A DNA stretch of 64,000 nucleotides from Candidatus Latescibacterota bacterium (GTDB lineage: Bacteria > Latescibacterota > UBA2968 > UBA8231), in the NCBI GenBank assembly GCA_022827835.1, contig JAJEIO010000020.1, forward strand, positions 22,168-86,167, in the 5' to 3' direction. Shown here piece by piece: positions 26,275 through 63,903 of this stretch. How positions within the stretch are numbered: the stretch's first letter is position 1; each line of letters begins with the position of its first letter. The position numbers and the translations under genes are program-made. The notes beneath the pieces are model-generated. The model worked only from the letters and a program-made list of their open reading frames with translations. It ran no database searches and was not told the DNA's origin.

Positions 26275-26301
26275 AGTACTCCTTCCGCTGAGAGGAGAAT
26301 C

Positions 26302-28908: not shown

Positions 28909-28918
28909 TAATGACCCC

Positions 28919-31531
28919 TCAGTAGGCAACGGCAATGGTGCGGAAAATCTCGGCATTGCCTATTTGGGAGCCCTCGGTATCGGTGTCCACCCGCAGCCGC
29001 GCCAGATAGATTCCCGGGGGCACCATCGCCCCCTGCTCATCCCACCCGTCCCAAGCGATCCCATACGATCCTGTACTCAACGCCCGCTGCTCGGCCAGCC
29101 GCCGCACCAGCCGCCCTTGCAGATCGTAGATGAGCACCTCCACCGGACTGTCGTCGCCCACCTTGACCACTGTAAAACGGAATGACGCCTCGTCATTGAT
29201 GCCATCGCCGTTGGGCGTAAACACCGCGGGCACCACCGACACCGCTTGCACCAAAGGCCCAGACGCGACTTTGCCCACCAGCGTCGTCGTATTGCTGACC
29301 ACCTCCGCGACCGCCTCGCCCGGATCCACCCGCTGCCAGCCCCCTTCTCCCTCTGCACTGTGCTGCAATGACGCCTGCAATACCGCACCCGTCGAAAACA
29401 AAGCCGTCGAAAAATCCAACCGCACCACCTCCACTTCTGAGGATGGACCGATCTCCGAAAACGCCACTTGCAAACTATCGCCAGCCGTGGGCACAACCTC
29501 TGCACCCTCCAACGCCCAATCGGCTCCTACGTCAGCGGCCAAGACCGCCGCCGGACCACCATACACCCCTGCAAACGCCAAACGCATATCCGACGGGGCG
29601 ACCACCAACAACTGATCAAACCCCGGATCGCCTGCGGCAAACTGAGGACGCACGTAGAGCGAAAACCGCTGCGGCTGCCCCAACTGCTCCACCGCAAAGG
29701 GCGTCACTTCGCCCGACAGCCCCTGCGCAACCGGATTGGTAAAATTCAAGCGAATCGACCGCAGCGTCGCACTGTAATCGGGCGTGTCCGACCCCAGCAC
29801 CGCCCGCACCTCCAAGTATGCCCGCGGCGAGGGCGAGGTGATCGGACTACCGCTGGCGTCTTCGTAGGGCGCACTCCAGTCGCTCCAGTCTCCTCCGGCG
29901 ACCTCCTCACCGATGGTGTCGCCGCGGAAAATCGACAGCAGCTTGTTGTATTCGGCCTCGGTGACTTCAGTGCCGTCCTTTTTGAAGTAGCGCAACACCT
30001 CGTCGAGTTCGTTGCCGGTGCGAGTCTGCAACACGACGCTGGTGCCCGGCGGCGTATCAGCATCCCACTCAATCGACAGCAAGTTTCGACTGCCGCCTAA
30101 GCGGATCAGATTGGACGTCAGCGCCACCTCCGGGTGATACCCTCGCCCGTAAAGCTGGATCTCCGCCGGCTGGCCGGTGGCTCCGCCGCGGGCTGTGGCG
30201 CTTTCGATCTGCTCCCACACCAAGCGAAAGAAGCGCGCTTTTACCCGCTCGAAATCGTTACCCTCGTAGGCTCCGAATCTGAGATTAGTCTCGCTTTCCC
30301 ACTTCGACCCCACCGCGGTAGGGGCGGAGGTCTGGCGCGTTCCCGTCGTGGTCCACTTGAGGCTGCCGTCCGCTTCGAGGCTGCCATCGGAAAAGTCGAG
30401 CCGGTAGTCCTTAAATGGCGAGCCACCGTAGGCGAGGCGAAAAGCGTCGATCCAGTAAAAAGCCCCCAAGTCAAAAAAGACAATGCCCTCTGGATCTTTG
30501 AACGAACCGCGCCCAAAAGAATAGAGAAATTGAACCTTGCTCTCGATCTGGCCGTCAATCAGGTTGTTGATCGCCGCCGTCTGCGTCGCCGTACCATACC
30601 CTCCCCGAGCCAACGCCCCCGTCAGAATCTCGTCGCCCTCAGCCCAAACCTCCAATTCAGCTAACCGTGGACGCTCTCGCTGGAAATAGCGGATCGGCCC
30701 CTGCTGCTCAGCCGTTAATAATTCGTATATCTCCGGCGACACCACCGTCTCACTGCCATCAGCCTGCCGCTTGTAAAACTCAATGGCCCCCTGATCACTC
30801 GCCGGCAAAGCCTCGTATTGTGCCAGACTTACCTCCCGCCCGCGATCAAAGTCACTGCCGGTAATGATGATCTGCACAAAGCGCATCCCCGGACCAGCAA
30901 AGGTCGGCTCCGAGTTGGTGATCAACTCGAACACCCGCTGCTCCTTGTTGGGCTTTAACGTGCGCAGAATAGTGGTAAACTCGGGCGTGGGCGAACGCTG
31001 GTTGCCCTTGGGAATGTTGCCCTGTGAGGCCAACAGGTCGAACTGCAAGAAGGGATCGCCCAACTCCTCGTCAACGAACTTGAGCACCAGCTTCTTGGCC
31101 ATCACCAACCGACCTAAATCGACGATAAACCACCACTGCGTGCCCAAATCCAACGCCTCCGTCGGCGGATCCGGCTCCCAATAGGTCGTCATATCCCCGT
31201 CGAACAGATTTTCCACACCCGCGACATTGGAGCGAGCACCTCCTAAGATGGCATCGGCAAGGACGATGTCTTCTGGGTCTTTCTTCAAGCCGTCCGGTGG
31301 ACGCGCACGCAAGTTGGCGACGATGTCGCCGACGGCATTGATATCGCGCCGCAGACTCCGGGGTTGCACCGTTCCACTGCTACCCAAGTCCAGCACTCCC
31401 GGCGGAAAGTTCCAGCTTTGCCAGTGCGCGCGCCGGTCAACCACCACTTGATCCGCAGTGATCCGGTAACCCGATTGGGCAAACGCAGTGCCGGCGATCA
31501 GCACAGCTAAGATCAATGATCGAGTCATCAT
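28919..31531 (-). CDS. A-type secreted surface protein (copy A3)
   Basis: A 870-residue exported protein, signal MMTRSLILAVLIAGTAFAQ from the double ATG at 31531. Its front three-quarters is a near copy of A2 (discoidin-like domains, the same insertions, and PEFTTILRTLKPNKEQRVF), while its last quarter is a near copy of A4 (VSNTTTLVGKVASGPLVQAV, then VFTPNGDGINDEASFRF). It is therefore a natural mosaic. One internal stretch (TGTRQTSAPTAVGSKWES) is unique to this copy and falls in a loop of the second discoidin-like domain. The stop TGA overlaps the A2 ribosome binding site region (ten bases before the A2 start), so the two are likely co-translated from one message. Confidence 0.85.
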   Translation of the reverse strand: MMTRSLILAVLIAGTAFAQSGYRITADQVVVDRRAHWQSWNFPPGVLDLGSSGTVQPRSLRRDINAVGDIVANLRARPPDGLKKDPEDIVLADAILGGARSNVAGVENLFDGDMTTYWEPDPPTEALDLGTQWWFIVDLGRLVMAKKLVLKFVDEELGDPFLQFDLLASQGNIPKGNQRSPTPEFTTILRTLKPNKEQRVFELITNSEPTFAGPGMRFVQIIITGSDFDRGREVSLAQYEALPASDQGAIEFYKRQADGSETVVSPEIYELLTAEQQGPIRYFQRERPRLAELEVWAEGDEILTGALARGGYGTATQTAAINNLIDGQIESKVQFLYSFGRGSFKDPEGIVFFDLGAFYWIDAFRLAYGGSPFKDYRLDFSDGSLEADGSLKWTTTGTRQTSAPTAVGSKWESETNLRFGAYEGNDFERVKARFFRLVWEQIESATARGGATGQPAEIQLYGRGYHPEVALTSNLIRLGGSRNLLSIEWDADTPPGTSVVLQTRTGNELDEVLRYFKKDGTEVTEAEYNKLLSIFRGDTIGEEVAGGDWSDWSAPYEDASGSPITSPSPRAYLEVRAVLGSDTPDYSATLRSIRLNFTNPVAQGLSGEVTPFAVEQLGQPQRFSLYVRPQFAAGDPGFDQLLVVAPSDMRLAFAGVYGGPAAVLAADVGADWALEGAEVVPTAGDSLQVAFSEIGPSSEVEVVRLDFSTALFSTGAVLQASLQHSAEGEGGWQRVDPGEAVAEVVSNTTTLVGKVASGPLVQAVSVVPAVFTPNGDGINDEASFRFTVVKVGDDSPVEVLIYDLQGRLVRRLAEQRALSTGSYGIAWDGWDEQGAMVPPGIYLARLRVDTDTEGSQIGNAEIFRTIAVAY

Positions 31532-31547
31532 TAATGCCCCCTCTATA

Positions 31548-34142
31548 CTAGTAGGCAACGGCAATGGTGCGGAAAATCTCGGCATTACCTATTTGGGAGC
31601 CCTCAGTATCGGTGTCCACTCGCAGCCGCGCTAGATAGACTCCCGGTGGCGCGACAGCGCCCTGTCCATCGCGACCATCCCAAGCGATCCCATACGATCC
31701 TGTGCTCAACGCCCGCTGCTCGACCAGCCGCCGCACCAGCCGCCCTTGCAGATCGTAGATGAGCACCTCCACCGGACTGTCATCGCCCACCTTGACCACC
31801 GCAAAGCGGAACGACGCCTCGTCGTTGATGCCATCGCCGTTGGGCGTAAACACCGCGGGCACCACCGACACCGCTTGCACCAAAGGCCCAGACGCGACTT
31901 TGCCCACCAGCGTCGTCGTATTACTGACCACTTCCGCGACCGCCTCACCCGGATCCACCCGCTGCCAGCCACCCTCGCCCTCCGCACTATTCTGCAATGA
32001 CGCCTGCATCACTGCTCCGGTCGAAAACAAAGCCGTCGAAAAATCCAACCGCATCACCTCAACCCCCGAATCAGGCCCCAGCGGTGCAAACGCTACCTGC
32101 AAGCTATCGCCCGAAGTAGGCACGACCTCAGCAGCGAAAGCCGTCCCGGCCGTCTCCCCGGCCGCTAGTTCGGCCGCTGTACCGCCGTAAAGTCCCTCAA
32201 AGCGCAGATTCATATCGGTGGGAGCGATCAAAAGCAACTGGTCGAAACCGGGGTCGCCGCGGGCGAAGTCTGGACGTACGTAAAAGGAGAAACGCTGCTC
32301 CTCGCCGAGGTTCTCAACCTCGAAAGGAGCGACTTCACCGACGAGTTCTTGCGCGACCGGATTGGTAAAGTTGAGCCGGATCGAACGCAGCGTTGCACTG
32401 ACCTCTGGATCGTCCGAAAGCAGGACCGCACGGATCTCGAGAAATTCGCGCGGGCTAGGCGAGGTAATCGGGCTGCCCTCCGCTACTTCATAGGGCGCAC
32501 TCCAGTCGCTCCAATCTGCGCCAGCCACCTCCTCGCCAATGGTGTCGCCGCGAAAAATCGACAGCAGCTTGTTGTATTCGGCCTCGGTGACTTCAGTGCC
32601 GTCCTTTTTGAAGTAGCGCAGCACTTCGTCGAGTTCGTTGCCGGTACGGGTCTGCAACACTACGCTGGTGCCCGGCGGCGTATCGGCATCCCACTCAATA
32701 GAGGACAGATTGCGGCTGCCGCCCAAGCGCACCAAGTCGGACGTCAGAGTTACTTCTGGCTGATACCCCCGCCCGTAGAGCTGAATCTCGGCCGGCTGGC
32801 CAGAACCACCACCAAAGCCACCGCCCGCCTCATACTGCTTCCAGACGAGGTGAAAGAAGCGTGCTTTAATCCGCCCGAAGTCGTTGCCCTCGTAGAGGCC
32901 GAAACCCAACCCCTGACTGCTGCCATAGTCGCTGTTTTCCGTGCGATTGACCGCGACCGACCACTTGAGGCTGCCGTCGGCTTCAAGGCTGCCGTCGGAA
33001 AAATCTAGATGGTAGGCTTGAAAGGCCGCGCCAGCATAGGCGATGCGGAAGGCATCGATCCAGTAGAAGGCCCCCAAATCGAACAGGACTCCACCCTCCG
33101 GGGAATTCAGTGATCCCCGGCCGAAGCGGGTGATAAATTGGACCCTGCTTTCGATCTCGCCGTCGATCATGTTGCTAATTGAGGCCGTCTGTGTCGCCGT
33201 ACCGGAACCACCGCGCTCCAGCATCTCAGAAAGGATCTCGTCGCCTTCGGCTAGAACCTCCAGCTCCGCTAGCCGCGGGCGCTCCTTGCGGTAGTAGCGA
33301 ATCGAACCTCGGCGGTCGGCGTCGAGACGCTCAAAAACCTTCTGCTCCACTAAGGTCTCGCGGCCTCCAGCGAGTTTTTTGAAGTAGTCTATCGCCCCCT
33401 GCTCTCCTGCCGGCAGAGCCTCGTACTCGGCTTGGCTTAGCTCCCGACCGCGGTCGAAATCGCTGCCAGTCACCACGACCTGCACGAAGCGGAGACCAGC
33501 GCCGGCGAAATCATCTCCCAACTGATCCATGTCGATCTCGAAGAGGCGCTGTTCCTTGTTGGGCCGCAAGGTGCGCAACAGCGGGCTGAACTCTGGCAGC
33601 GGCGAGCGCTGGTTGCCCTTGGGCTTGTTGCCCTGTGAGGCCAACACATCAAACTGCAAGAACGGGTCTCCCAAATCCTCCCCGACGAATTTGAGGACAA
33701 TTTTCTTGGCGATCACCAATCGGCCCAAGTCAACGACGAACCACCACTGTGAAGCGAGATCGGACTCCTCGCTCGCCGCGACTGGTTCCCAATAGGTTGT
33801 CAAATCGCCATCGAAAATATTGGGCACCGCAGCGATATTCGCCGTGGCCCCGCCCTGTACCGCGTCGAGTGGAACGATATCTTCGGGGTCTTTTTTGATT
33901 CTTTCCGGGGGGCGCAAGCGCAAGTAATCGACGATGTCCTGTACTGCATTGATGTCGCGGCGGAGTTTCTGGGGCCGGACCGAGCCGTCGGCACCTAGTT
34001 CCAGCACCCCCGGCGGAAAACTCCAGTTCTGCCAGTGGGCGCGGCTGTTGACTATTACCTGACTCGCCGTCACCCGGTGCCCGACTTGGGCTGAGACGCC
34101 TACTGCCCACCCAAGCATTAATAAGACACTGATGCGCTGCAT
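31548..34142 (-). CDS. A-type secreted surface protein (copy A4)
   Basis: A 864-residue exported protein with signal MQRISVLLMLGWAVGVSA and mature start QVGHRVTASQVIVNSRAHW. It has two discoidin-like domains (IFDGDLTTYWEPV, WWFVVDLGRLVIAKKIV; later FDLGAFYWIDAFRIAY), the sandwich domain with RTGNELDEVLRYFKKDGTE and DWSDWSAPYE, and a CHU_C-like end (PAVFTPNGDGINDEASF) finishing IAVAY. The inserted modules read LSQAEYEALPAGEQGAIDY, EQKVFERLDADRRGSIRYY and VTEAEYNKLLSIFRGDTIG. In sequence it lies between A1 and the A2/A3 pair and is probably closest to the ancestor of the tandem array. It lies 17 bases after B3, so B-type and A-type genes again adjoin. Confidence 0.85.
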   Translation of the reverse strand: MQRISVLLMLGWAVGVSAQVGHRVTASQVIVNSRAHWQNWSFPPGVLELGADGSVRPQKLRRDINAVQDIVDYLRLRPPERIKKDPEDIVPLDAVQGGATANIAAVPNIFDGDLTTYWEPVAASEESDLASQWWFVVDLGRLVIAKKIVLKFVGEDLGDPFLQFDVLASQGNKPKGNQRSPLPEFSPLLRTLRPNKEQRLFEIDMDQLGDDFAGAGLRFVQVVVTGSDFDRGRELSQAEYEALPAGEQGAIDYFKKLAGGRETLVEQKVFERLDADRRGSIRYYRKERPRLAELEVLAEGDEILSEMLERGGSGTATQTASISNMIDGEIESRVQFITRFGRGSLNSPEGGVLFDLGAFYWIDAFRIAYAGAAFQAYHLDFSDGSLEADGSLKWSVAVNRTENSDYGSSQGLGFGLYEGNDFGRIKARFFHLVWKQYEAGGGFGGGSGQPAEIQLYGRGYQPEVTLTSDLVRLGGSRNLSSIEWDADTPPGTSVVLQTRTGNELDEVLRYFKKDGTEVTEAEYNKLLSIFRGDTIGEEVAGADWSDWSAPYEVAEGSPITSPSPREFLEIRAVLLSDDPEVSATLRSIRLNFTNPVAQELVGEVAPFEVENLGEEQRFSFYVRPDFARGDPGFDQLLLIAPTDMNLRFEGLYGGTAAELAAGETAGTAFAAEVVPTSGDSLQVAFAPLGPDSGVEVMRLDFSTALFSTGAVMQASLQNSAEGEGGWQRVDPGEAVAEVVSNTTTLVGKVASGPLVQAVSVVPAVFTPNGDGINDEASFRFAVVKVGDDSPVEVLIYDLQGRLVRRLVEQRALSTGSYGIAWDGRDGQGAVAPPGVYLARLRVDTDTEGSQIGNAEIFRTIAVAY

Positions 34143-34159
34143 AGCTACATACCCATCTT

Positions 34160-36100
34160 TCAGTAGGCTAAAACGACAACGCGCTGACGTGCCTCTTTGC
34201 GTTGGTCACTTTCTACTTCCAGCCGTAGCAGATACAATCCCGGCGCAGCCACCGACCCATCTGCTAAACGCCCGTCCCAGCGCAGCGAGACTCGGCCGCT
34301 CGCCGCCGTGCCCCGATCCACCGCCCCGATCCACCGTCCCGATAAGTCGTACAAATCCAGTAGTACTGGTACTGCACCAAAAAGGTTCAACAATTCGTAT
34401 TCGATCTCAAGGGCGTCATTGATTCCATCGCCGTTGGGCGTAAACACTGGCGAGGACAGCTTGAGCGCATTGACTGCTTTCTCCCCTACTTCGGCTAACT
34501 CTACACTCAGGGTGTTGCTATCGATCAGCGGATTGGCATCGCCTGGAGTTAATGCTTGCCGCACTTCAAAGGGCTTTTCGCTATCGGAGACCCGGCCAGA
34601 GAACACCGTTCCAAACTTGAACACCTCCACGGCGAAATCCACCTCGATCCGTTCGCTGGTTTGCTGCACGTCCATCCGTGGGATTTTGAGAACAAAGCCG
34701 ACGGCGTCCGAGCGCACGACCTCAAAGCCGACTTCCTGGCCGGCGATTCGCACGCCGCTGATGCTGGTCACTTCGACCGGCGTCGCAATCTCGATGGTGT
34801 CAAATCCCAAATCTTCGCGCTCGAATTGCGGCAGAATACTATAGGTAAACTGAGTAACGTCCCCGGCTGGAGCACTCGGTGGCGAAATTTCGGCCAACAC
34901 TTGCGTCGCTACTGGCGGGTCCGAGATGCTAAACTGTAAAAAGTCTAGCCGCCCACCCGCGTTCTTCTGGGCGGTAAAATCGGCTTTGAGCTGTACGTAG
35001 CGCCGCGGTTTATCAGCTTGCATCGGACCCGAACCGGCCGCAAAATCATAGGCCTGGCTCCACGGCTCCCAGTTCTGGGTATCGGGCGTAATCCCGGCCT
35101 TCTCGCCTTTGTTGAGCCTATCGTAGGCTCGGGCCGTAAGCGGCTGGCCCTTGGCGTCAAAGCGGCTCTGCTCGTCGCCGCGGAAGGTGAAGCGCCAATA
35201 GATGCTCGGGTCTGGCACATCGCCGCTGCGCATCACTAAGTCGATATGGGCACCGGTGTCAACTTCGCCCGACCAGCTCAAATCGCCCAAGGCCACCGGC
35301 TTGCCCAAGTCGATAATGCTGCTAGTATAGTTGGAGAAGGGCGCAAAACCTGAACCGTAGAGTTCCAACTCGGCCAATTCCCAAATCCCCCGCGTATTCT
35401 CCGGTGCGCGGAAAAGCAGCTTGCGGATCGGCTCGTCGGGCATCTTCAAGTCAATGATCGGCTGCGTATTGTCGCGGATATTGTAAATCACATCAAAGGC
35501 CACATAATCGCCCCGCGACCCGGCCTGAAGGTCTCGGTGGGGATCTTTGAGTGGGTCGCCGTCGCTGGTGCCGATAATGAAGCGCTCGACAAAGCGGTCG
35601 GTCAGGTGGCTGGGCCGCGGGTAGAACTTGACCCGGTCGATAAAGAACAGCCCGCCAAAATCGAAGATCAGGTTTTTGGTATTCGGCCCATGCGAGGCAA
35701 AATGACCGTCTCCCAGATAGGCCGTATTGGGATCCTCGTCCCAAATAAGCTCATCGTCGTCGTCGAACCCTCCCCAGCCGATCCAAGTCAGGTAGAGGAT
35801 ATCACCGAGAAAATCGGCCTGCGGCAAAAGTGGTGTCAGATTGACCGTGGGGTCGAGTTGCCGCGGCTCAATGTGACTGCTGGTCACCTCTAGCAAGTTG
35901 ATACTACCGTGCAAATCCTCGTCGATATCGGCCCAATCGATCTGCACGAACTCCACCCCTTCAACCGATGCCAACTCCGGCGCAGGCTGGTCAGTACCCC
36001 CGACCCGATAGATCGTTAGAGCACCAAGATCGCCTGCCCCTACCACCAGCGATCCCACCGTCCACCATGCGATTAGGTGTCTCATCTGGCTCATCCCCAT
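34160..36100 (-). CDS. B-type secreted surface protein (copy B3)
   Basis: A 646-residue exported protein. Candidate starts are ATGs at 36100, 36094 and 36085 (the track's 36106 is a TTG). I take 36100, right after the B4 stop. The signal is MRHLIAWWTVGSLVVGAGDLGA and the mature start LTIYRVGGTDQPAPEL. It is the copy closest to B1: PRQLDPTVNLTPLLPQADF, the GWGG loop, LIFDFGGLFFIDRVKFYPR, and the insertion LTARAYDRLNKGEKAGITPD. The terminal domain is VFTPNGDGINDALEIEYELL, ending RVVVLAY. This segment is almost the same as in B4, so the two share a recently homogenised C-terminus. It lies between B4 and the A-type array. Confidence 0.85.
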   Translation of the reverse strand: MGMSQMRHLIAWWTVGSLVVGAGDLGALTIYRVGGTDQPAPELASVEGVEFVQIDWADIDEDLHGSINLLEVTSSHIEPRQLDPTVNLTPLLPQADFLGDILYLTWIGWGGFDDDDELIWDEDPNTAYLGDGHFASHGPNTKNLIFDFGGLFFIDRVKFYPRPSHLTDRFVERFIIGTSDGDPLKDPHRDLQAGSRGDYVAFDVIYNIRDNTQPIIDLKMPDEPIRKLLFRAPENTRGIWELAELELYGSGFAPFSNYTSSIIDLGKPVALGDLSWSGEVDTGAHIDLVMRSGDVPDPSIYWRFTFRGDEQSRFDAKGQPLTARAYDRLNKGEKAGITPDTQNWEPWSQAYDFAAGSGPMQADKPRRYVQLKADFTAQKNAGGRLDFLQFSISDPPVATQVLAEISPPSAPAGDVTQFTYSILPQFEREDLGFDTIEIATPVEVTSISGVRIAGQEVGFEVVRSDAVGFVLKIPRMDVQQTSERIEVDFAVEVFKFGTVFSGRVSDSEKPFEVRQALTPGDANPLIDSNTLSVELAEVGEKAVNALKLSSPVFTPNGDGINDALEIEYELLNLFGAVPVLLDLYDLSGRWIGAVDRGTAASGRVSLRWDGRLADGSVAAPGLYLLRLEVESDQRKEARQRVVVLAY

Positions 36101-36102
36101 TC

Positions 36103-38028
36103 TCAATAGGCTAGGGCAATGACGCGCTGAAGCGCTTCCTTGCCTTGGTCGCTGTCAACTTCTAATCTCAGCAGATACAGCCCCGGCGCGGTCACGGCCC
36201 CATTCGCCAGCACTCCATCCCACGCCAGCGCGAATCGGCCACTCTCCGCCGTGCCCCGATGCACCATCCCTACCCGCCGTCCCGCTAGATCGTATAGCTC
36301 CAGCGCCACCGGCACTGCGCCGAAGAGGTTTAGCAGCTCGTATTCAATCTCGAGGGCGTCGTTAATTCCGTCGCCATTGGGCGTAAATACCGGCGAGGAC
36401 AGCTTGAGCGCGTTGACCGCCTTCTCCTCTACGTTGACCAGTCCCACGCTCAGGGTATTGCTATCCACCAGTGGATCGGCGTTCCCGGCAGTCAGTGCCT
36501 GCCGCACCTCGAAGGGCTTCTCGCTGTCGGAAATCCTCCCGGTAAATACCGTCCCGAACTTGAATACTTCCACCGCAAAGTCAATCTCAATTAGTTCGCC
36601 CGTCTGTTGCGGATCCATGCGCGGAATCCGCAATGCGAATCCTCGTGCATCCGAGCGCACAACGTCGAAGCTGACCTCTTGACCATCAATCCGCAACGCG
36701 TCGATGCTTGCAACCTCGACCGGGGTCTCAATCTCAATAGTATCAAACCCCAAATCCTCGTCGCGCAATTGGGGCAGAATCGCATAAGTAAAAGACGTCA
36801 CCTCGCCGGCGCGGGCGCTCGCCGGTGCGAGTTCGGCCAAGGCTTGAGTCGCCACCGGCGGGTCTGAGACGCTAAACTGCAAAAAGTCCAGACGCCCACC
36901 TGCTTCTTTCTGGGAAGTGAAATCAGCCCTGAACTGCACGTAACGACGCGGTCTGTCCGCTAGCAGCACGTCCTCTCCGGCGGCGAAGTTATATGGCGGG
37001 CTCCAGTCGGACCAGTTTTCAGTATCAGGTGTGACCCCAGCCTTTTCGCCCTTTTCCAATCGGTTGTACGTGCTGAGCGTCAAGGCAGTGCCATTGGTGC
37101 CGAAGCGACTGCGCTCGTCGCCGCGAAAAGTCAGACGCCAATAAGAATTGGGATCGTCGTCATCACCGCTGCGCATCGACAACGCCACTTCTGCCCCTCC
37201 CTCGGCCTCCCCCGACCACGTTAGATCGCCCAAACTCGCCATGCCGCCTAAGTCGATGACGTTGGTCATGTATTGGCTCTTGGGCGCGAAGCCAATACCG
37301 TAGAGTTCAAACTCGGCGATTTCCCAAACGCCTCGGGTGTTGGGCGGTGCTTCAAACATGAGTTGGCGGATAGGCTCATCCGGGATGCTCAACTCGATTA
37401 CCGACTGCGTGTTTTCGGTGATGTTGTACACCAAATCGTAATCGCGAAACTGGCCACCCTCGCCGCCGACGACGTACTCGCGCGTATTCTTCTTGAGTGG
37501 ATCTCCATCGCTGATGCCAATGACGAAGCGCTCGATGAAGCGGGTGTCGAGAAAACGTTCGCGGGGATAAAACTTGATGCGATCGACGATGAAGTTGCCG
37601 CCCAAGTCGAAGATCAGGAGTTTGTTTTTGACCCGGCCGTAGTCTCCGCCCCAATCGCCATCGCCGAGAAAGTGCGTCGTTGGGTCGCCGTCGAACATCG
37701 GTGCATCGCGGGCCGGAAAGTCGGCGAACCCGACGATCGTCTGCAAAGTCTCAATCCGGCCGCCGCGCTCGTCCAAAAGGGGCGTCAGGTTGACCGTCGG
37801 GTCTAGCTGCTGCGGCATAATCTCATCGGATGCGAGCACCATTTGTACCGCACTACCGTGTGCTTTAGAACTTATGGCCTCCCACTCAAGCTGGACAAAT
37901 TGATAGGGCACATCCAACTCGGGAGCAGGCAAATCCGCTGCGCCGATGCGGTAAATGGTCAGCGCATCGCTGCGACTACTCCATCCTATTACCGCTAAAA
38001 GCGCCAAAAGCCATAAGCCTCTCTTCAT
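36103..38028 (-). CDS. B-type secreted surface protein (copy B4)
   Basis: A 641-residue exported protein with signal MKRGLWLLALLAVIGWSSRSDA and mature start LTIYRIGAADLPAPEL. The N-terminal motif is PQQLDPTVNLTPLLDE. The discoidin-like domain contains PTTHFLGDGDWGG, LLIFDLGGNFIVDRIKFYPRE and VWEIAEFELYGIGF. The sandwich insertion is LTLSTYNRLEKGEKAGVTPD, then NWSDWSPPYNF. The CHU_C-like end is VFTPNGDGINDALEIEYELL, finishing RVIALAY. It is the first gene after a strong hairpin (38077-38102), so it may start a new transcription unit. A TATTAT stretch on the minus strand just after that hairpin is a possible -10 element. Its stop immediately precedes the B3 start. Confidence 0.85.
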   Translation of the reverse strand: MKRGLWLLALLAVIGWSSRSDALTIYRIGAADLPAPELDVPYQFVQLEWEAISSKAHGSAVQMVLASDEIMPQQLDPTVNLTPLLDERGGRIETLQTIVGFADFPARDAPMFDGDPTTHFLGDGDWGGDYGRVKNKLLIFDLGGNFIVDRIKFYPRERFLDTRFIERFVIGISDGDPLKKNTREYVVGGEGGQFRDYDLVYNITENTQSVIELSIPDEPIRQLMFEAPPNTRGVWEIAEFELYGIGFAPKSQYMTNVIDLGGMASLGDLTWSGEAEGGAEVALSMRSGDDDDPNSYWRLTFRGDERSRFGTNGTALTLSTYNRLEKGEKAGVTPDTENWSDWSPPYNFAAGEDVLLADRPRRYVQFRADFTSQKEAGGRLDFLQFSVSDPPVATQALAELAPASARAGEVTSFTYAILPQLRDEDLGFDTIEIETPVEVASIDALRIDGQEVSFDVVRSDARGFALRIPRMDPQQTGELIEIDFAVEVFKFGTVFTGRISDSEKPFEVRQALTAGNADPLVDSNTLSVGLVNVEEKAVNALKLSSPVFTPNGDGINDALEIEYELLNLFGAVPVALELYDLAGRRVGMVHRGTAESGRFALAWDGVLANGAVTAPGLYLLRLEVDSDQGKEALQRVIALAY

Positions 38029-56232: not shown

Positions 56233-59200
56233 TCACATATATGACAGAAAATGCCCGGTCTCGCCCAACACGCCGTCAATACACAGCCACAATCCGGCCG
56301 CGGTCGCCTCGCCCAAGATCAGCCCTAGGAAAAACAGCTTAGCCCGCTCGTAGAGCGGCATCCCACCCCACTTGACAATGCCCAGCTTGAGCGCCCACGC
56401 GATGAGCACCGAAAACCACACCTGATTAGCCAGCCAACCGACGCTGACGATAAACCCCAGCGGGTGCAACGGCCACCAGTAAAAACGATGATGTCCCCAC
56501 AACAGCACAGCCTCAAAGAGTCCGCCGATCCCGGTAAACAACCAACCGCGCATATCGGCTGGTAGCGGATCGACGATCGGCCGCGCCATATCGGTAAACG
56601 TGCGATTGGCCTGACGGGTCATAAAAAACGGATGCAAATTGATCCCGCCGTGCTCGTAGCACACCTGAAAAATAACCCACGTCGCCCCAGCTAAACTCAC
56701 CACTAACGCCAGCGCCATCCCCCAAAACAGCCGCCTCTTAGAGCCAACCACCGCCTCGGCCAGCTTGAGCGAATTAGCCGCAGCAATCATCGGAAACAGC
56801 CGCATCTCAGACTGCCAAACGTACGTAAAAGTCAGGGCCGTCAGCCCCTTGGCTCCAATCACCGGTGCGCCGACCGCGGAGATGACGAAAAACGCCGCCA
56901 CCATCGGCGAGCGCGCCGTCGCCAACCCGGCCGTGGCCACCGCCCGCGTGACGAACACGTAGAAGAGCAAGCACACCAGCAAAAACAGCGGCAAAATCGC
57001 CAGCGGCACCCCAGACGCCCACAGCCACACTCCCACGAAGAGCAGGCTGGCCAAAAAGCCAAAGACCGCCACCCGATAGGAAAGCATTTCCCCCGCATCA
57101 TCTACCGTCGGATCGCCGCGCCACGCCTTGCGCCACACCGCCCCCAAGTGCCGCCGCCCCATCCACAAGGTGTAGGCGACGAAAATCAAACACGCCCCCA
57201 TCACCTCGTGCGTCAGATCCGCGGTCTGCGAGTAGGAGTAGAGACTGAGCTTTTCGGTACTGGCAATGCCCAACGAGGTAAAAATCCCCTCTTGCGCCTT
57301 GTTGAAGAGGTAGAAAAACCAAATTGAAAAGGAAATGTTTAGGTTGACCAAATAGAAAAAACCGATCCACGCGTACACCCAGTCTAACCCCAGCTTATTG
57401 CCGACCCACGGCAGTTGCCCAGCCGACTGGATCGGCAGCGGCACCGCCGGAAAGTAGTAGTGCAGCCCCTTGAGCGACAGCAGGACGAACGGCACCGCAA
57501 AGCCGATCCACAACAGCCGCTGCTTAAAAAGCGGCCCCAGCTTAAACCCCGGTCGGCCCTCCTCCACCATCTTGAGCGGCAGTTGCACCATGGGGTAAGC
57601 CAGCCGCTCGTGCTGCGACCACTGCCGGTGCAGAATGGAACTCATGCAGAGCATCATAAAGCTCAGTACCAAAAAGAACACGTACCAATAGCTCAGCGTC
57701 TCACTCCAAGCTCCCCACGGAATGCCTTCCCCAGGCGACAACCCCTCGTGCAAATCGACAATCGCCTGCCGGTCCTGCGGAGCCAGCCACGGCGTCACAT
57801 GCGGAAAGAAAACCTCGCCCCAATTGTTCTCCGGGGTCGCGTAGTAGTACAGCCCACTGATGATCGGAATCAGATAGCCGACAAACGCCTGCGTTGGCAC
57901 GGCCGACGCCAACAGCATCATCGCGTAAATGAGCACCAAATCGGCCCGCCCCAAGGCGAGGCCGCGACCCAGCGCCCGCAGCAGAGTATTGACCACCACC
58001 ACCAAGACAAAAAACAGAAAGATCGCCCCGGGCGACGAGCTGTTGAGCGCCATATACGACCCTTGCAGCATAATCACCGCGTAGGGTGCTCCCATGCCGA
58101 TGCACAAGGCCAACATCGTCCCCACCGCAAATCCCCGCCAAGTAAAAGACGCCGGCTGTTCCGCTGCCCCCTGTTCCTCTACGCGCTCCTCGGCTTGCTC
58201 GGCCGCCAGCACCCGCGCCGACTCCACGTGCTGGACGCGCTCGGCCTCCCGGAGCGCGTACCAAATCAACATCTGCTTGCGCAGAGCCTCTACCAGCCGC
58301 AGGTTGAGCCGCTGCCAGTAGTGATGCTCACCACTTAGCCGGCGCAACCGGACTTCCATCGCCCGCGCACGCTCTCCGGTCGGCACGAACTCCACGACCA
58401 CCTCTTGACTGACCCCCAAGTCAAACGGAGCCAGCCACAGCGCAAACGAGAGGCGATAGCCATCGGCTTGCGCCACCTGCATATCCTCGACGTAAAAATC
58501 CCCCAGCGTCGCTCGGCCAAAGGCCCCAAAGTAGTTGGCCAAAAAGCCGCACACCCCCTCGACTTCTCCCTCGCCGAGCATGAAGGGGAACTCAAACAGC
58601 CATTCGTCGCCATTGGGCGGGTCCGGTCGCCAGCGCCGCACCACCTCCGGCACGGCCTGCCGCGCCGCCACCCGCGCCGGATAGATCGTCGATAGCAACA
58701 CCACCCCCATCACCGCCAGCGCAGCCCCAATCGCCGCCAGCGACGAGTAGTTCAAGGTCAAGCCCTGCAACAGCCCCAGCCCCAACAGCACCCTCCCCAA
58801 CCCCTGGCCTAGCAAGTAGCCCAACGTCGTCCCTAGCACCGCATAGACGCAGGCTTCGGCCACAAACAGCAGCGCGATGTGCAAGGGAGCCAACCCCACC
58901 GAGGAGTAGATGCCAATCTCGCGCAGGCGCTCGTACACCGCCCCCATCATCGCATTGAGCACAATGAGCGCAGCCACTAGCGCGGGAATCGCCAGCACCC
59001 CCAACCCCTGCACAGCCGTCAGCCCCACTGAACTCAGAGCAGTCACCCTCCCATCCGGCGAGCCGACGAACAAAGTGACCGCAACCCGCGTCAGATAGTC
59101 CTCGACCAACGCCTGCCCGTCGGTCGCGCCCGGAAAGCGCACAGCTATCGAGCGCAAGCTCCCGCCGGCCTCGATCAGCGTTTGATAGGGCACGATGACC

Positions 59201-62200
59201 ACGTGCTGCGGCTCTAGATGAATAAAGGGCCGCAACTCGTTGGGATCCTCCTCGCCAGCAATATCCACCGCCCGCGCCGCCCCTAGCTGGAGCATCTCTG
59301 CGCCCGACAGGACAAAATCGGCCGGCATCAGGCTCTCGTCGTCTAGGTCGCGCAGTTCACCCAACCGCTCCGGGTCGGCAATCCCGCGCACCTCCAGCGC
59401 GCGCCCAAACACCTCGACCTGATCCCCAACCCCAACGCCCAGCACCGCAGCCATATCCAGCGGCAGAATACAGGTAGCCTCGTCATCCGCGGCAAAAAAC
59501 GATCCGGCCACCAAGCTCTTATTCACCTCGGTGATCTGCGCTTCCTCCGGCGTCAGGCCCAACAAGCCCGTGGCCCGCACTGCCTTCCCTGCCGCGGCCA
59601 CCGAGATCCAGCTTCCCTTGCCGCCTTCGGTCGCGTACCAGCCGCGCCGCCCCATCCAGCCACTGCCACCAAAGTGCGACTCAGCGTAGTCGAGCGCCTC
59701 TGGCGTCAAGCGCTCCCAGCCGCGGTCGCGGATGAGGATCCCAGGGTATGCCCCAGCGTGTGGCAGCCGGAAACTCGCATAGCGGATTTGCTGTTCAAAC
59801 GAGGTAAAAGAGAGCAGGGTAAACGTCAAAAGCGTCAGCGTCGCCAGCGTCAGACCGGTGCGCAGGGGCCGCCGCCGCATATTGGAAATCCCCAACATGA
59901 AGGCCGCATAACTCGCGCTCATACGGCTCAGGTCCTGGGCGTGGACCCGCGTCTGCTGGCTCTGGTGCTGGGCCATGACGCGATTGAACCGGCCCACCAG
60001 CATAAAGAGCACGAAGGCAGCCATTGCCATGATTGCAAACGCCAACAGCACCACCAGCGGCTCGGCCAACTCAAAGGCTGGATGCACCTGCGCCAAAATC
60101 AGCCAAATCGCCAGCAATAACAGCCCAAAGCCCGCGAGTTGCCGGCGAATATCGGCCGCGGCAAACAAGAGTCGCTCCCCGAAAAAGGCCGCTGGCAACA
60201 ACAGCGCCAAAAAGAAAATCACCCCTTCGAGCACATCGTTGAGCGTCGCCAAGACCTCCGGGTAGGCCCGCGTCTCCAAGCCCAGCGCCTTGCGGCTCCA
60301 CGCCACGTACTCATCCCACTTCAATTGTTCTGCCGCTGCTTCCGCCTCAGCTATGGCTGCCGCCGCCTGCGCGTGGAGGCGCGTCAACCGCTGATTTTCA
60401 ATGCCGTGCTCCTTGAGGACCCCCAGCCGCGCCGCATCCAAGTTCCACACGTCCCGCGCCGCCTGCAGCGTCGCTCCCCCAAAGCCCTCCTCGGTCAGCA
60501 AAAATCCCCGGCCCCGCGCCTCGGTCTCGCTTTGGCTGCCCTCGCTGTTGAGCAGCAAAAGTTGGCCGTCCAAAATCACTTTGACGCGATCGTCGGCTAC
60601 AGCATCGGTTGGCCCGTAGATCACTCCCACCGAGCCGATGCTACTCAAACCCAGCGCGTACCCGTATTGACCCGGCTCGCCCCCGTCCGCCGACATCACC
60701 TTCACTTTGTTCAACGCACGCAAAAGGCGCGGCTCGACCAAGCCGTACAGGGGCCGACCCACCCCGGGAAAGAGCACGGCGATCTGCTCGTTTTGCCGCC
60801 AGCGCACATTTTTGGCCAAGCGGCCATCCGGCCTTGGTTTCCCGTGGTGCGCCTGCGCGCGCTCACTCAAATCCACTACGTGAGTAATCGTCCCCCGCTC
60901 GGCGTCCAGCGCCGCCACTGCCAAGGGATACGTCCCCTGCTCCAACCCGGGCACCCGCACCAACCCAGCGACATCGGTGAGAAAGTAGCGCGTGTTGCGC
61001 ACTCCTTTGCGCTCTTCCTCCTCCACCTGCACCGCCACCAGCGCCCCAGTCACCGGTCGATCCGGCATCTGACTGCGCCGGGGAAACGTCCGCGCTTTGA
61101 CCCGCAAATCCCGCAGCCGATCCTTCAACGCCTCCTCAAGCCGCTCTCGTCCGGCCAACAGCGCCGTATCGGCCAACGCATGAGCCAGCAAATCGGCCAC
61201 CAACGCCGCCTGTCCTTCCACATTATCCCACGCCACCCGCTCGCCCGTATCTTGTGGTAAATCCAGCGCAAAACGAGCGTCTCCTACGGTCGCCAGCGTC
61301 AGCGACGGAAACCCCGCCTCGAGCGCCAGTTCCCCATCGGCAGCTAAGCCTCCAGGCATATAGCTGTCCCAATCCATCCCCCGAATCGGGCTGATGCCAT
61401 TGGCTACCGCCTCGGCGCGACCCAGTGCCTCCGCGTACTCGGTAAAGCGACGGCCAAAGGGCACGAAAAACCGCTTAAGTGCGTAGCTATCCGTGTTGTT
61501 CCACAGCACCACCCGCTCGCCGTGGCTAGACAAATCGAGGCCAATGAACAGGTCAATATTCAGCGGCTCGGCCAGCCGGGCTGCGTAGTGCTCTTGGCGG
61601 CGAGCGTGCCTGTCGAGAAAAGTGACCATACCCTGTCGCCCCTGGAAGTGGGCACTTAGCGCGGCGAGGACCACCGTGTGCGCCGGTGGATTCGCTTGCA
61701 AGCGAGCAGCCACCTCCAACAACGCCGCCACGCTCACCGCGGCCTCTGCTCCCGGTGCCCGCGCTGGTATCACCGACGGGGCGTCGTAATACGCATGGAC
61801 GAGCACCGTCTCCTCCCGCGCGGTCCCCGCATCCCGCCCCGGCACCACCACCCACACGTTGTACGCCATCCGCTCCTGCCAATCCATCCGCCCCCACAGC
61901 CCCACCTCCACTTCTCCGTCCACCAACCGCCGCCGCAGCCGCTCTCCAGCGGTCTTCTCCACCCAAAAGCGCGGCACATCCAACGGTGCCCGCACGTACT
62001 TGCCCTGCGCCTGCTGCGTAGTAGAAGAATCCGCGGCCACAAATACCACCGCCCGCGCCCCCAACGACGCGGCCTTCAGCCAATTGTCCCCACTAGCAAA
62101 GTCCAGCACCACCACCCGCCCAGCCACCTCCTGCCCATTAAAATCCCCCCAATCCCCATCGCCGCCCCAAATCGCCGGTGCTCGCAACCCTTCCGGCGGC

Positions 62201-62640
62201 ACGGTCGAAGTCCGCATCCCATTCGGCCACATCGCGTACAAGGTGACCGACTCATCTTCCCACTCCAACCGCCCGCCCTTGTCCATCGGCACCACCACTG
62301 CAAAGGAGTCGCGTCGCGTCGCCAACCCCAACGCCTGCAACCGCCCCTCCACATACTCCGCCGCCTGGGCACTCCCCGGATAGCCCGCCACTCGCGACCC
62401 CAACGAGGCCAAATGCTCTACAACAGCTCGCGGCCCTGTAGAAGCTGCCACCGAGCCGCTGACAAAGGCGACCAAAAAGGCAATGATCAGCGCAACCATA
62501 GCGTCCCAATATCGGCCCCAAGCATTCCGTCTAGCAAGCAAACCGACAGACGCGGCTTCTTTCGGCACTGGCTGGAGGACCGCCCCTGAGGCGATTACTT
62601 TATCTATACGTGGAACTTCAGCTATCGGCGAGACGTTCAA
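56233..62640 (-). CDS. Giant fusion: M28 peptidase-like domain, FtsX/MacB-type ABC permease, DUF6785-like transporter
   Basis: A single open frame of 2135 codons. The start is uncertain: TTG 62640 as tracked, TTG 62541, or ATG 62499; the later ones leave more room for the divergent promoter. From the N-terminus: a membrane anchor (about 48-66); an M28 peptidase-like part (70-500) with a protease-associated insert (VAGRVVVLDFASGDNW), but with the metal-ligand motifs altered (VLVHAYYDAPSV, GAEAAVSVAALLE, ALSAHFQGRQG); a carboxypeptidase-regulatory-like sandwich (525-590); three helices (803-885); an ABC permease of the MacB/FtsX type (910-1340; ISNMRRRPLRTGL, VYERLREIGIYSSVGL, IYPARVAARQAVPEVV); a soluble linker; and a DUF6785-like membrane domain of about 12 helices (1499-2135; ATPENNWGEVFF, HERLAYPMVQLPLKM). 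No ATPase is encoded nearby. Function unknown. Confidence 0.85.
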   Translation of the reverse strand: MNVSPIAEVPRIDKVIASGAVLQPVPKEAASVGLLARRNAWGRYWDAMVALIIAFLVAFVSGSVAASTGPRAVVEHLASLGSRVAGYPGSAQAAEYVEGRLQALGLATRRDSFAVVVPMDKGGRLEWEDESVTLYAMWPNGMRTSTVPPEGLRAPAIWGGDGDWGDFNGQEVAGRVVVLDFASGDNWLKAASLGARAVVFVAADSSTTQQAQGKYVRAPLDVPRFWVEKTAGERLRRRLVDGEVEVGLWGRMDWQERMAYNVWVVVPGRDAGTAREETVLVHAYYDAPSVIPARAPGAEAAVSVAALLEVAARLQANPPAHTVVLAALSAHFQGRQGMVTFLDRHARRQEHYAARLAEPLNIDLFIGLDLSSHGERVVLWNNTDSYALKRFFVPFGRRFTEYAEALGRAEAVANGISPIRGMDWDSYMPGGLAADGELALEAGFPSLTLATVGDARFALDLPQDTGERVAWDNVEGQAALVADLLAHALADTALLAGRERLEEALKDRLRDLRVKARTFPRRSQMPDRPVTGALVAVQVEEEERKGVRNTRYFLTDVAGLVRVPGLEQGTYPLAVAALDAERGTITHVVDLSERAQAHHGKPRPDGRLAKNVRWRQNEQIAVLFPGVGRPLYGLVEPRLLRALNKVKVMSADGGEPGQYGYALGLSSIGSVGVIYGPTDAVADDRVKVILDGQLLLLNSEGSQSETEARGRGFLLTEEGFGGATLQAARDVWNLDAARLGVLKEHGIENQRLTRLHAQAAAAIAEAEAAAEQLKWDEYVAWSRKALGLETRAYPEVLATLNDVLEGVIFFLALLLPAAFFGERLLFAAADIRRQLAGFGLLLLAIWLILAQVHPAFELAEPLVVLLAFAIMAMAAFVLFMLVGRFNRVMAQHQSQQTRVHAQDLSRMSASYAAFMLGISNMRRRPLRTGLTLATLTLLTFTLLSFTSFEQQIRYASFRLPHAGAYPGILIRDRGWERLTPEALDYAESHFGGSGWMGRRGWYATEGGKGSWISVAAAGKAVRATGLLGLTPEEAQITEVNKSLVAGSFFAADDEATCILPLDMAAVLGVGVGDQVEVFGRALEVRGIADPERLGELRDLDDESLMPADFVLSGAEMLQLGAARAVDIAGEEDPNELRPFIHLEPQHVVIVPYQTLIEAGGSLRSIAVRFPGATDGQALVEDYLTRVAVTLFVGSPDGRVTALSSVGLTAVQGLGVLAIPALVAALIVLNAMMGAVYERLREIGIYSSVGLAPLHIALLFVAEACVYAVLGTTLGYLLGQGLGRVLLGLGLLQGLTLNYSSLAAIGAALAVMGVVLLSTIYPARVAARQAVPEVVRRWRPDPPNGDEWLFEFPFMLGEGEVEGVCGFLANYFGAFGRATLGDFYVEDMQVAQADGYRLSFALWLAPFDLGVSQEVVVEFVPTGERARAMEVRLRRLSGEHHYWQRLNLRLVEALRKQMLIWYALREAERVQHVESARVLAAEQAEERVEEQGAAEQPASFTWRGFAVGTMLALCIGMGAPYAVIMLQGSYMALNSSSPGAIFLFFVLVVVVNTLLRALGRGLALGRADLVLIYAMMLLASAVPTQAFVGYLIPIISGLYYYATPENNWGEVFFPHVTPWLAPQDRQAIVDLHEGLSPGEGIPWGAWSETLSYWYVFFLVLSFMMLCMSSILHRQWSQHERLAYPMVQLPLKMVEEGRPGFKLGPLFKQRLLWIGFAVPFVLLSLKGLHYYFPAVPLPIQSAGQLPWVGNKLGLDWVYAWIGFFYLVNLNISFSIWFFYLFNKAQEGIFTSLGIASTEKLSLYSYSQTADLTHEVMGACLIFVAYTLWMGRRHLGAVWRKAWRGDPTVDDAGEMLSYRVAVFGFLASLLFVGVWLWASGVPLAILPLFLLVCLLFYVFVTRAVATAGLATARSPMVAAFFVISAVGAPVIGAKGLTALTFTYVWQSEMRLFPMIAAANSLKLAEAVVGSKRRLFWGMALALVVSLAGATWVIFQVCYEHGGINLHPFFMTRQANRTFTDMARPIVDPLPADMRGWLFTGIGGLFEAVLLWGHHRFYWWPLHPLGFIVSVGWLANQVWFSVLIAWALKLGIVKWGGMPLYERAKLFFLGLILGEATAAGLWLCIDGVLGETGHFLSYM

Positions 62641-62661
62641 ACGCAGTTGAAGGAGGGCTCC

Positions 62662-63903
62662 ATGCTATACCGCATTGCCGCTATCGGCTTCATTTTTGCC
62701 TGCACGAGTGTCGCCTGGATCATCTTGGCAGAGGTCGTCTCGCATCGCACCCATCAGCAAGACACCAAACTCAAAGCCGAGGTGGGCCAATTGTGGGGCA
62801 CCTCCCAGTCCCAACGCGCCCCACTCCTGTACTGGACCACCGAGGAAACCGTCGTCACCCAGACTCCCGACGGCCAAGAGACAGAACACTCCAAGGAGCG
62901 GCGGCACCTCCTGCCCCTAGAAGCCAGCCGCCTACAAGTCGATCTACATCTCGAACACCGCCGCAAGGGTCTGCTGTGGTACTCCACCTACCAAGTGGAA
63001 CTGGACGCCACCTACAATGCGACCAACGAGACCGACCGCCCCCTCGACCTGACGTTCGATCTAGCCCTGCCAACCTCTCAAGCTGTGTACGATGATTTCA
63101 CCCTATCCATCGACGGCCAGCCCATCGCCCCGCTGCCGCTGGCAGAAGGACACTTGCAACAGCCGTTGCACTTCGCGCCGGGCCAGAGTCGCCAGATCCG
63201 TCTTTCCTATGAGTCGCAGGGTTTAGAAGAATGGTGGTACCGCTTCGGCGACCACGTCGAGCAAGTCTCCGATTTCGAGTTGGTCATGCACACTGATTTC
63301 GACGCCATCGACTTCCCGCGCCAAAGCCTAGCACCCACTCACAAGGAGCGCACCGCCGATGGCTGGCGTCTCACTTGGCAGTACGACCGCTTGCTCACTG
63401 GAGCCTCCCTCGGCATGGTCATGCCTGCTCGCCTCAATCCAGGCCCCTGGGTACAAGACGTGACCCAAGCCGCGCCCATGTCCCTCTTTCTCTTTTTCTT
63501 CGTCCTCTTCGTCTTTGCCGCGGTCAAAGGCATCGACATCCATCCGATGACTTACTTCTTCATCGGCGCGGCCTTTTTCAGCTTCCACTTGCTTTTGGCC
63601 TACCTAGCCGACCACTTGCTCATCCACTACGCCTTTTTGCTGGCTGCGGCCGTGTCCGTTTTCTTGGTCATCTCCTACATGCGGCTCGTAGTCGGCCTGC
63701 GGCTGGCCTTGGTGGAGGTGGGGCTGGCCCAATTCATCTACTTGGTACTCTTCTCCTACACCTTCTTCTTCGTCGGCTATACCGGCTTGGCCATTACCAT
63801 CCTGTGCATCGCCACGCTCTTTGTCACCATGCAGCTTACCGGCCGGATGGACTGGTCAGACTTGTTTGCCCAACCGCCAGACACTCCGCAAAAGTCCGAG
63901 TAG
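62662..63903 (+). CDS. CreD-like inner-membrane protein
   Basis: A 413-residue protein. The ATG at 62662 follows AAGGAGG; the track starts at an upstream TTG. One N-terminal anchor helix (IAAIGFIFACTSVAWIILA), then a periplasmic domain of about 240 residues (LLWYSTYQVELDATYNATNE, FAPGQSRQIRLSYESQGLEEW), then five to six helices (SLFLFFFVLFVFAAVKGI, HPMTYFFIGAAFFSFHLLLA, FLLAAAVSVFLVISYMR). This order and the helix bundle match the CreD family, although the sequence is more diverged than typical CreD. CreD belongs to the CreBC two-component regulon in enterobacteria and affects envelope homeostasis; no such regulator is visible here. It is divergent from the giant fusion gene. Confidence 0.75.
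   Translation: MLYRIAAIGFIFACTSVAWIILAEVVSHRTHQQDTKLKAEVGQLWGTSQSQRAPLLYWTTEETVVTQTPDGQETEHSKERRHLLPLEASRLQVDLHLEHRRKGLLWYSTYQVELDATYNATNETDRPLDLTFDLALPTSQAVYDDFTLSIDGQPIAPLPLAEGHLQQPLHFAPGQSRQIRLSYESQGLEEWWYRFGDHVEQVSDFELVMHTDFDAIDFPRQSLAPTHKERTADGWRLTWQYDRLLTGASLGMVMPARLNPGPWVQDVTQAAPMSLFLFFFVLFVFAAVKGIDIHPMTYFFIGAAFFSFHLLLAYLADHLLIHYAFLLAAAVSVFLVISYMRLVVGLRLALVEVGLAQFIYLVLFSYTFFFVGYTGLAITILCIATLFVTMQLTGRMDWSDLFAQPPDTPQKSE

Follow-up and report, generated by a model that had tools for sequence, protein, structure and literature searches.

Type VII ATP-binding cassette (ABC) systems convert ATP cycles into periplasmic movement (PMC5985334), and one of them, YbbAP-TesA, couples this movement to a hydrolase (PMC12646458). 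Barley Yellow Stripe 1 (YS1), in turn, is a proton-coupled symporter of the OPT family (PMC9691689). Here we describe a fused gene whose product joins a type VII permease to a protein of predicted OPT-like fold. It was found in a stretch of 64,000 nucleotides from a Candidatus Latescibacterota bacterium (assembly GCA_022827835.1, contig JAJEIO010000020.1, positions 22,168 to 86,167). This whole stretch, hereafter the window, belongs to contig C39 of the genome G000 (5.84 Mb). In the following, A denotes a DUF6785 protein, B an M28-FtsX protein, and C a third membrane protein, which is OPT-like; the fused gene consists of B followed by A.

B resembles type VII ABC systems such as MacB, LolCDE, FtsEX and YbbAP-TesA in its FtsX permease domain, the large periplasmic insertion between the first two transmembrane (TM) helices, the coupling helix and, in the extended gene cassette, a LolD-like ATPase; the pairing of permease and hydrolase in YbbAP-TesA is paralleled here by the M28-like domain. 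Unlike these systems, it has an M28/PA-like periplasmic domain in one chain with the permease, four additional TM helices and an extra domain at the C-terminus, it is fused or adjacent to a transporter of predicted OPT fold, and its candidate ATPase is encoded elsewhere, together with a half permease of 242 residues. In its predicted fold, DUF6785 can be matched to YS1 along almost its entire chain, and the neighbouring protein C matches the OPT family (PF03169), but DUF6785 has no PF03169 sequence match and, unlike OPT proteins, is fused to a type VII permease. We know of no OPT protein that works with an ABC ATPase. In group II ECF transporters, one shared ATPase module acts in trans for several unlinked membrane subunits, and a comparable sharing may be supposed here from the copy number (one ATPase pair, seven B proteins), although the protein families are unrelated.

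The gene is a natural fusion of a type VII ABC permease subunit, bearing a very large M28-like periplasmic domain that is probably a non-catalytic receptor, with a DUF6785 protein of predicted OPT fold. On balance, we regard it as somewhat probable that it is one paralogue of a type VII ABC system whose motor acts in trans and whose partners are OPT-fold transporters.

Frame and conservation of the fused gene

The fused gene (56233-62640, minus strand, like all its parts given below) is an open frame of 2135 codons that opens with a TTG (62640) and closes with the stop (56233); its stop-to-stop length is 2143 codons. The joining of an M28-like, an FtsX and a DUF6785 module in a single frame, proposed in a preliminary description made from the letters of the window alone, was confirmed by Pfam matches to every module: Peptidase_M28 with 24.9 bits (residues 262-392, cut-off 21.3), FtsX (PF02687) with 46.1 bits (residues 1216-1328, cut-off 25.5), DUF6785 with 408 bits (residues 1500-1998, profile positions 1-498 of 498) and DUF6784 with 95 bits (residues 2033-2128). 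MacB_PCD reached only 19.5 bits in the fused protein, under the Pfam cut-off. The TTG start is uncertain because the stop-to-stop frames of the orthologues at loci L071 and L072 are shorter by 14 and 42 codons, and Met48 (62499), located at the first TM helix, could serve instead. A check for internal starts revealed GTG codons in the linker region ahead of the DUF6785 part; there is no stop upstream of them, so the full-length fused product is still expected.

The same order of modules was found elsewhere. When 64 genomes of the phylum were searched with a junction query of 426 residues (1335-1760), nine matched it over its full length, with no stop (G000-G004, G007, G009, G010 and G016); they are 8 of the 11 genomes searched in the genus and G016 from another genus of the same family. 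The remaining listed matches in the 64 genomes start at a query residue of at least 108 and represent DUF6785 copies, none of which matches the whole query. In the genome scan, the relatives named were Latescibacterota or 'Gemmatimonadetes' metagenome-assembled genomes, and the fused orthologues included two closed chromosomes, OX638377 and OY282352. A Glu/Ala-rich linker lies at residues 1480-1498 (58147-58203), and all same-genus copies keep the 28-codon linker in frame, with only two to three amino-acid changes in each of three pairwise comparisons. The fused copies form a single clade in the DUF6785 tree (SH-aLRT 99), neighbouring solo DUF6785 copies of the same genome. Since the same fusion occurs in nine genomes, sequencing or assembly error is ruled out and the fusion is real and conserved. 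The concern that close relatives might always encode the modules separately does not apply: close relatives carry the same fusion, and unfused homologues exist as adjacent genes. The fused gene represents, in covalent form, a conserved gene neighbourhood that is apparently undescribed so far.

Two further apparent fusions, in G014 (1952-codon frame) and G023 (2228-codon frame), were rejected: in both, the N-terminal extension is an upstream, overlapping DUF6785 gene read in the wrong frame. There was likewise no support for the B-A pairs at loci L093 and L123 as the source of the fusion, the fused A grouping with solo DUF6785 copies.

Modules of the fused protein

Hydropathy analysis of the fused protein located an N-terminal TM helix (residues 47-65, 62446-62502), three extra TM helices at residues 803-870 (60031-60234), which are conserved in the homologue alignment, the four helices of the FtsX core and ten scored segments in the DUF6785 part. 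The periplasmic PA and M28-like domain lies between the first two of these groups (about residues 70-500, 61141-62433). The B alignment profile matches the PA/M28 aminopeptidase 2ek8 (E 5e-14) as well as 6hc6 and nicalin, so that the domain shares with M28 peptidases and the M28-fold nicalin a PA + M28 fold recognisable by sequence. In an alignment of 80 B homologues referenced to 2ek8, however, the catalytic metal-ligand His of M28 peptidases is replaced in 76 (Tyr in 69, Phe in 7; His is kept in 4) and the position of the general-base Glu is occupied by His in all 80; in the fused protein the two positions hold Tyr and His. Ordinary M28 peptidase activity is therefore unlikely. Of the original description of this part as M28-like, the family relationship stands, with a Peptidase_M28 (PF04389) score above the cut-off, while the key catalytic residues of the family are lost. 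The site nevertheless shows no decay: Asp286, Glu299, His331, Asp369 and Arg456 are conserved, and Asp286, His331 and Arg456 are invariant. Such conservation in a new form suits an altered enzyme as well as a binding domain.

The type VII (MacB/FtsX/Lol-like) permease core (residues 930-1328, 58657-59853) has TM helices at 930-948, 1210-1228, 1242-1260 and 1301-1319; about 260 residues, including a MacB_PCD-like periplasmic part, separate the first two, and MacB and LolC are its relatives in the PDB. Its major coupling helix, YERLREIGIYSSVGLAP (residues 1236-1252, 58885-58935), is the predicted ATPase docking site. The helix lies between TM2 and TM3 and aligns with the corresponding MacB segment; its motif YERxREIGxYSxVGLAP is near-invariant, and the core YER...VGLAP is kept in essentially all 80 homologues. 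Because the coupling-helix motif of MacB and LolC is retained, docking of a LolD-like ATPase on B is plausible. The permease is followed by an alpha/beta domain of 145 residues (1335-1479, 58204-58638), predicted to be cytoplasmic, which was modelled by AlphaFold2 with a predicted local distance difference test (pLDDT) score of 93.5 and has 15 invariant columns in 63 homologues. It matched no known family and gave no significant fold match in the PDB. Helix-grip (START/PR-10-like) proteins were its best fold hits, but with E 2e-3 and TM-scores below 0.5, and no family was assigned.

The C-terminal part comprises DUF6785 (PF20581, residues 1500-1998, 56647-58143) and DUF6784 (PF20580, residues 2033-2128, 56257-56544), the latter being the C-terminal part of the same predicted fold. 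A literature search for DUF6785, DUF6784 or combinations of M28 and FtsX gave no match, and no described function of DUF6785 was found. The AlphaFold2 model of this part (pLDDT 85, pTM 0.88) had exactly two significant Foldseek matches in the PDB, both of them YS1: 7wsr chain A (E 5.8e-8, TM 0.60/0.64, 687 columns) and 7wst (E 8e-8, TM 0.6), the next PDB match being at E 0.08. Sequence searches of A and C against the PDB gave no match, so that the fold search alone succeeded. For protein C, 6 of 20 members matched PF03169 (best 1e-6), and the A and C profiles matched each other at E 2e-6. From the YS1 fold match, the OPT matches of C and the A-C profile match, A and C are both considered OPT-like; taken together, the predicted structure and the gene neighbourhoods point to a kinship of DUF6785 with the OPT peptide/metal-chelate transporters. 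The expectation that the fusion would offer a clue to DUF6785 was thus borne out by this predicted fold and by the linked partners. Some C proteins (L050:3901-7149, L089, L092 and others) have a long insert in the OPT-like chain; that of L050 carries PDZ domains, and the C-profile match at contig C50 is hence split in two.

Gene neighbourhoods and a candidate ATPase

The neighbourhoods were read from stretches of DNA around the loci. The genome carries 44 copies of A (the fused one and 43 others), 7 of B and 5 of C. Such a number of DUF6785 copies is an unusual expansion of an OPT-like family, and 37 of the 44 have no M28-FtsX gene nearby; solo copies are often found near genes for sulfatase-like, FG-GAP-like or FlgD_ig-type secreted proteins. 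B is fused to A once and unfused six times. A adjoins unfused B at contigs C50, C38, C44 and C62, and one small gene lies between them at C15 and C25; under a rough random-gene model, the chance of finding A beside or one gene from all six unfused B genes is about 2e-9. C is present at five of the seven B loci and nowhere else in the genome. The intervening gene is a putative PIN-type toxin frame at C15 (L054:6801-7181), by reading of the sequence, and an oppositely oriented M55 D-aminopeptidase gene at C25 (L055:11868-12701). At contig C62 (L053:5128-6499), C is directly followed by X, a protein of about 330 residues with no Pfam family, and by a PqqD-like protein, and relatives of both occur in the cassettes of other lineages.

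A scan of public genomes recovered 519 relatives of the M28-FtsX protein, in uncultured phyla, and A-B-C is the commonest arrangement among 79 of its loci. The A and B genes overlap by 4 bp at L051 and L064, and in the reverse order, B-A, they overlap by 4 bp at L093 (GTGA) and L123 (ATGA). In distant loci, a TPR-repeat gene lies directly upstream of B (L139:3100-3813, L130:9235-9918) and is possibly a further component.

The surroundings of all seven B genes of the genome lack an ABC ATPase. In relatives, B-C is followed by a short FtsX protein (sFtsX, about 225 residues) and a LolD-like ATPase at L111, L117, L119, L139 and L148, with X and the PqqD-like protein between C and sFtsX in four of these five. 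The full order A-B-C-X-PqqD-sFtsX-ATPase is present in L190 and L191, the latter being the same genome region as L139. The cassette ATPase is most similar to LolD, YbbA and MacB. The preliminary description had pointed to the DNA outside the window as the place to look for the ATPase that an FtsX permease needs, and a candidate was found there by orthology: contig C4 carries, together, in single copy and unlinked to the B genes, orthologues of sFtsX (a half permease of 242 residues) and of the ATPase, which are 62% and 76% identical to their L139 counterparts and exceed the next matches by a clear margin. In relatives, this pair stands in one cassette with the unfused genes. An sFtsX orthologue is in single copy in 53 of 60 relatives examined. 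Of the 55 genomes with B, 53 have it, against none of the five without B (Fisher 4e-6, uncorrected for kinship), and the two B-bearing genomes that lack it are 73% and 80% complete. Among distant groups, 16 of 18 B-bearing genomes have a strong sFtsX orthologue (E < 1e-44), the other two giving fragments or weaker matches, and sFtsX stood beside the ATPase in all 12 loci inspected. Judged from orthology and from its co-occurrence with B across phyla, the sFtsX/LolD-like pair of contig C4 is a candidate partner motor of B. The system as a whole (A, B, C, X, the PqqD-like protein, the sFtsX half permease and the LolD-like ATPase) is widespread and apparently undescribed.

Two other features of the window were noted. 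The divergent neighbour of the fused gene (62647-63903, plus strand) encodes a CreD C-terminal part (PF06123, 71 bits), and in G001 and G007 the fused gene has a frame of 413-418 residues next to it, identically placed and oriented. Farther away (24313-38028, minus strand), six consecutive related genes (653, 884, 888, 864, 648 and 641 residues) end in FlgD_ig / CHU_C-type domains, and three of them have weak F5/8 C-like regions; they form a tandem array of probably secreted proteins.

Proposed mechanism and its alternatives

By analogy with type VII systems and YbbAP-TesA, the following sequence of events may be proposed. B and sFtsX would form a LolC/LolE-like heterodimer on an ATPase dimer, and ATP binding would move the periplasmic M28-like domain of B (mechanotransmission). 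This domain would bind the substrate, likely a peptide-like or metal-chelate-like solute, and its movement would hand the substrate to the OPT-fold partner (A or C), or gate that partner, so that the substrate crosses the inner membrane. In the fused protein the OPT-fold partner would be covalently attached, with the ATPase pair supplied in trans from contig C4. A stronger version is put forward only tentatively: a type VII ABC motor, acting by way of the M28-like receptor, would itself drive or gate an OPT-fold carrier (DUF6785 and/or C), and one shared sFtsX/LolD-like module would serve several unlinked receptor-carrier units, one of which is now a single polypeptide, as a new class of transporter. 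The early suggestion that the fusion couples its modules holds at the genomic level, in the conserved fusion and the linkage of the genes; a physical complex, the sharing of one ATPase by several B paralogues, the direction of transport and the nature of the substrate are suppositions of the model.

The tree of A, with its repeated switches between solo and B-linked copies, speaks for this interpretation. Several points weigh against it. Co-occurrence and adjacency of genes do not prove a complex. The genomes compared for the presence of sFtsX and B are not independent in phylogenetic terms: four of the five without B belong to one family. In the stretches read from Omnitrophota, Elusimicrobia, Desantisbacteria and TA06, B-C occurs without A. 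The OPT assignment of DUF6785 rests on a predicted model, because PF03169 is absent among its Pfam matches up to E 0.1. With so many solo copies, DUF6785 is probably able to function by itself, and the fused A is more closely related to solo copies than to the other B-linked ones. Finally, the known type VII ABC systems are described as working in the periplasm, not as moving substrate across the inner membrane (PMC5985334), so that coupling to an inner-membrane transporter would be new.

Some of these observations bear on the alternative that the fusion is a scaffold, in which DUF6785 acts as a common OPT-like importer coupled to ions, and the FtsX and M28-like parts work independently in the periplasm as a mechanical device of the FtsEX or LolCDE kind and supply it with substrate through proximity, with ATP hydrolysis uncoupled from the movement of the OPT-like part. 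The 37 solo copies, the proton symport of the only fold match, YS1 (PMC9691689), and the purely periplasmic work of known type VII systems (PMC5985334) would all agree with it. All seven M28-FtsX proteins of the genome, however, have DUF6785 beside them or fused to them, and C is confined to B loci; this constancy suggests more than proximity, and we consider the scaffold possible but unlikely.

Still less likely is a device that handles peptidoglycan, lipoproteins or lipids, like FtsEX-EnvC, LolCDE or YbbAP-TesA, in which the M28-like domain would be active as a hydrolase, though with altered chemistry, and the OPT-like part would have a structural or regulatory role. YbbAP-TesA sets a precedent for the pairing of a type VII ABC system and a hydrolase (PMC12646458), the ATPase is nearest to LolD, YbbA and MacB, and the five conserved residues of the M28-like site agree with such activity, whereas the replacement of both the catalytic His and the general-base Glu speaks against it and the fused OPT-fold transporter points to the passage of a solute. 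A chance or erroneous joining of neighbouring genes without function, by a missed stop or an assembly error, might be thought of since the modules are separate in many relatives and B and A are neighbours with a 4-bp overlap in two, but it is hardly credible for a fusion shared by nine genomes, two closed chromosomes included, with its linker conserved in frame.

For the reading we favour, a type VII permease subunit joined to an OPT-fold partner with its motor in trans, the consequences reach beyond this gene. The OPT-like fold, the defined partners and the candidate ATPase make the function of DUF6785 testable. If the ATPase drives the OPT-fold carrier, two transporter classes that are now treated separately would be joined, and this would be, to our knowledge, the first type VII ABC system acting on passage across the inner membrane. 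Since the system is widespread in uncultured phyla, it bears on nutrient uptake by many uncultured bacteria.

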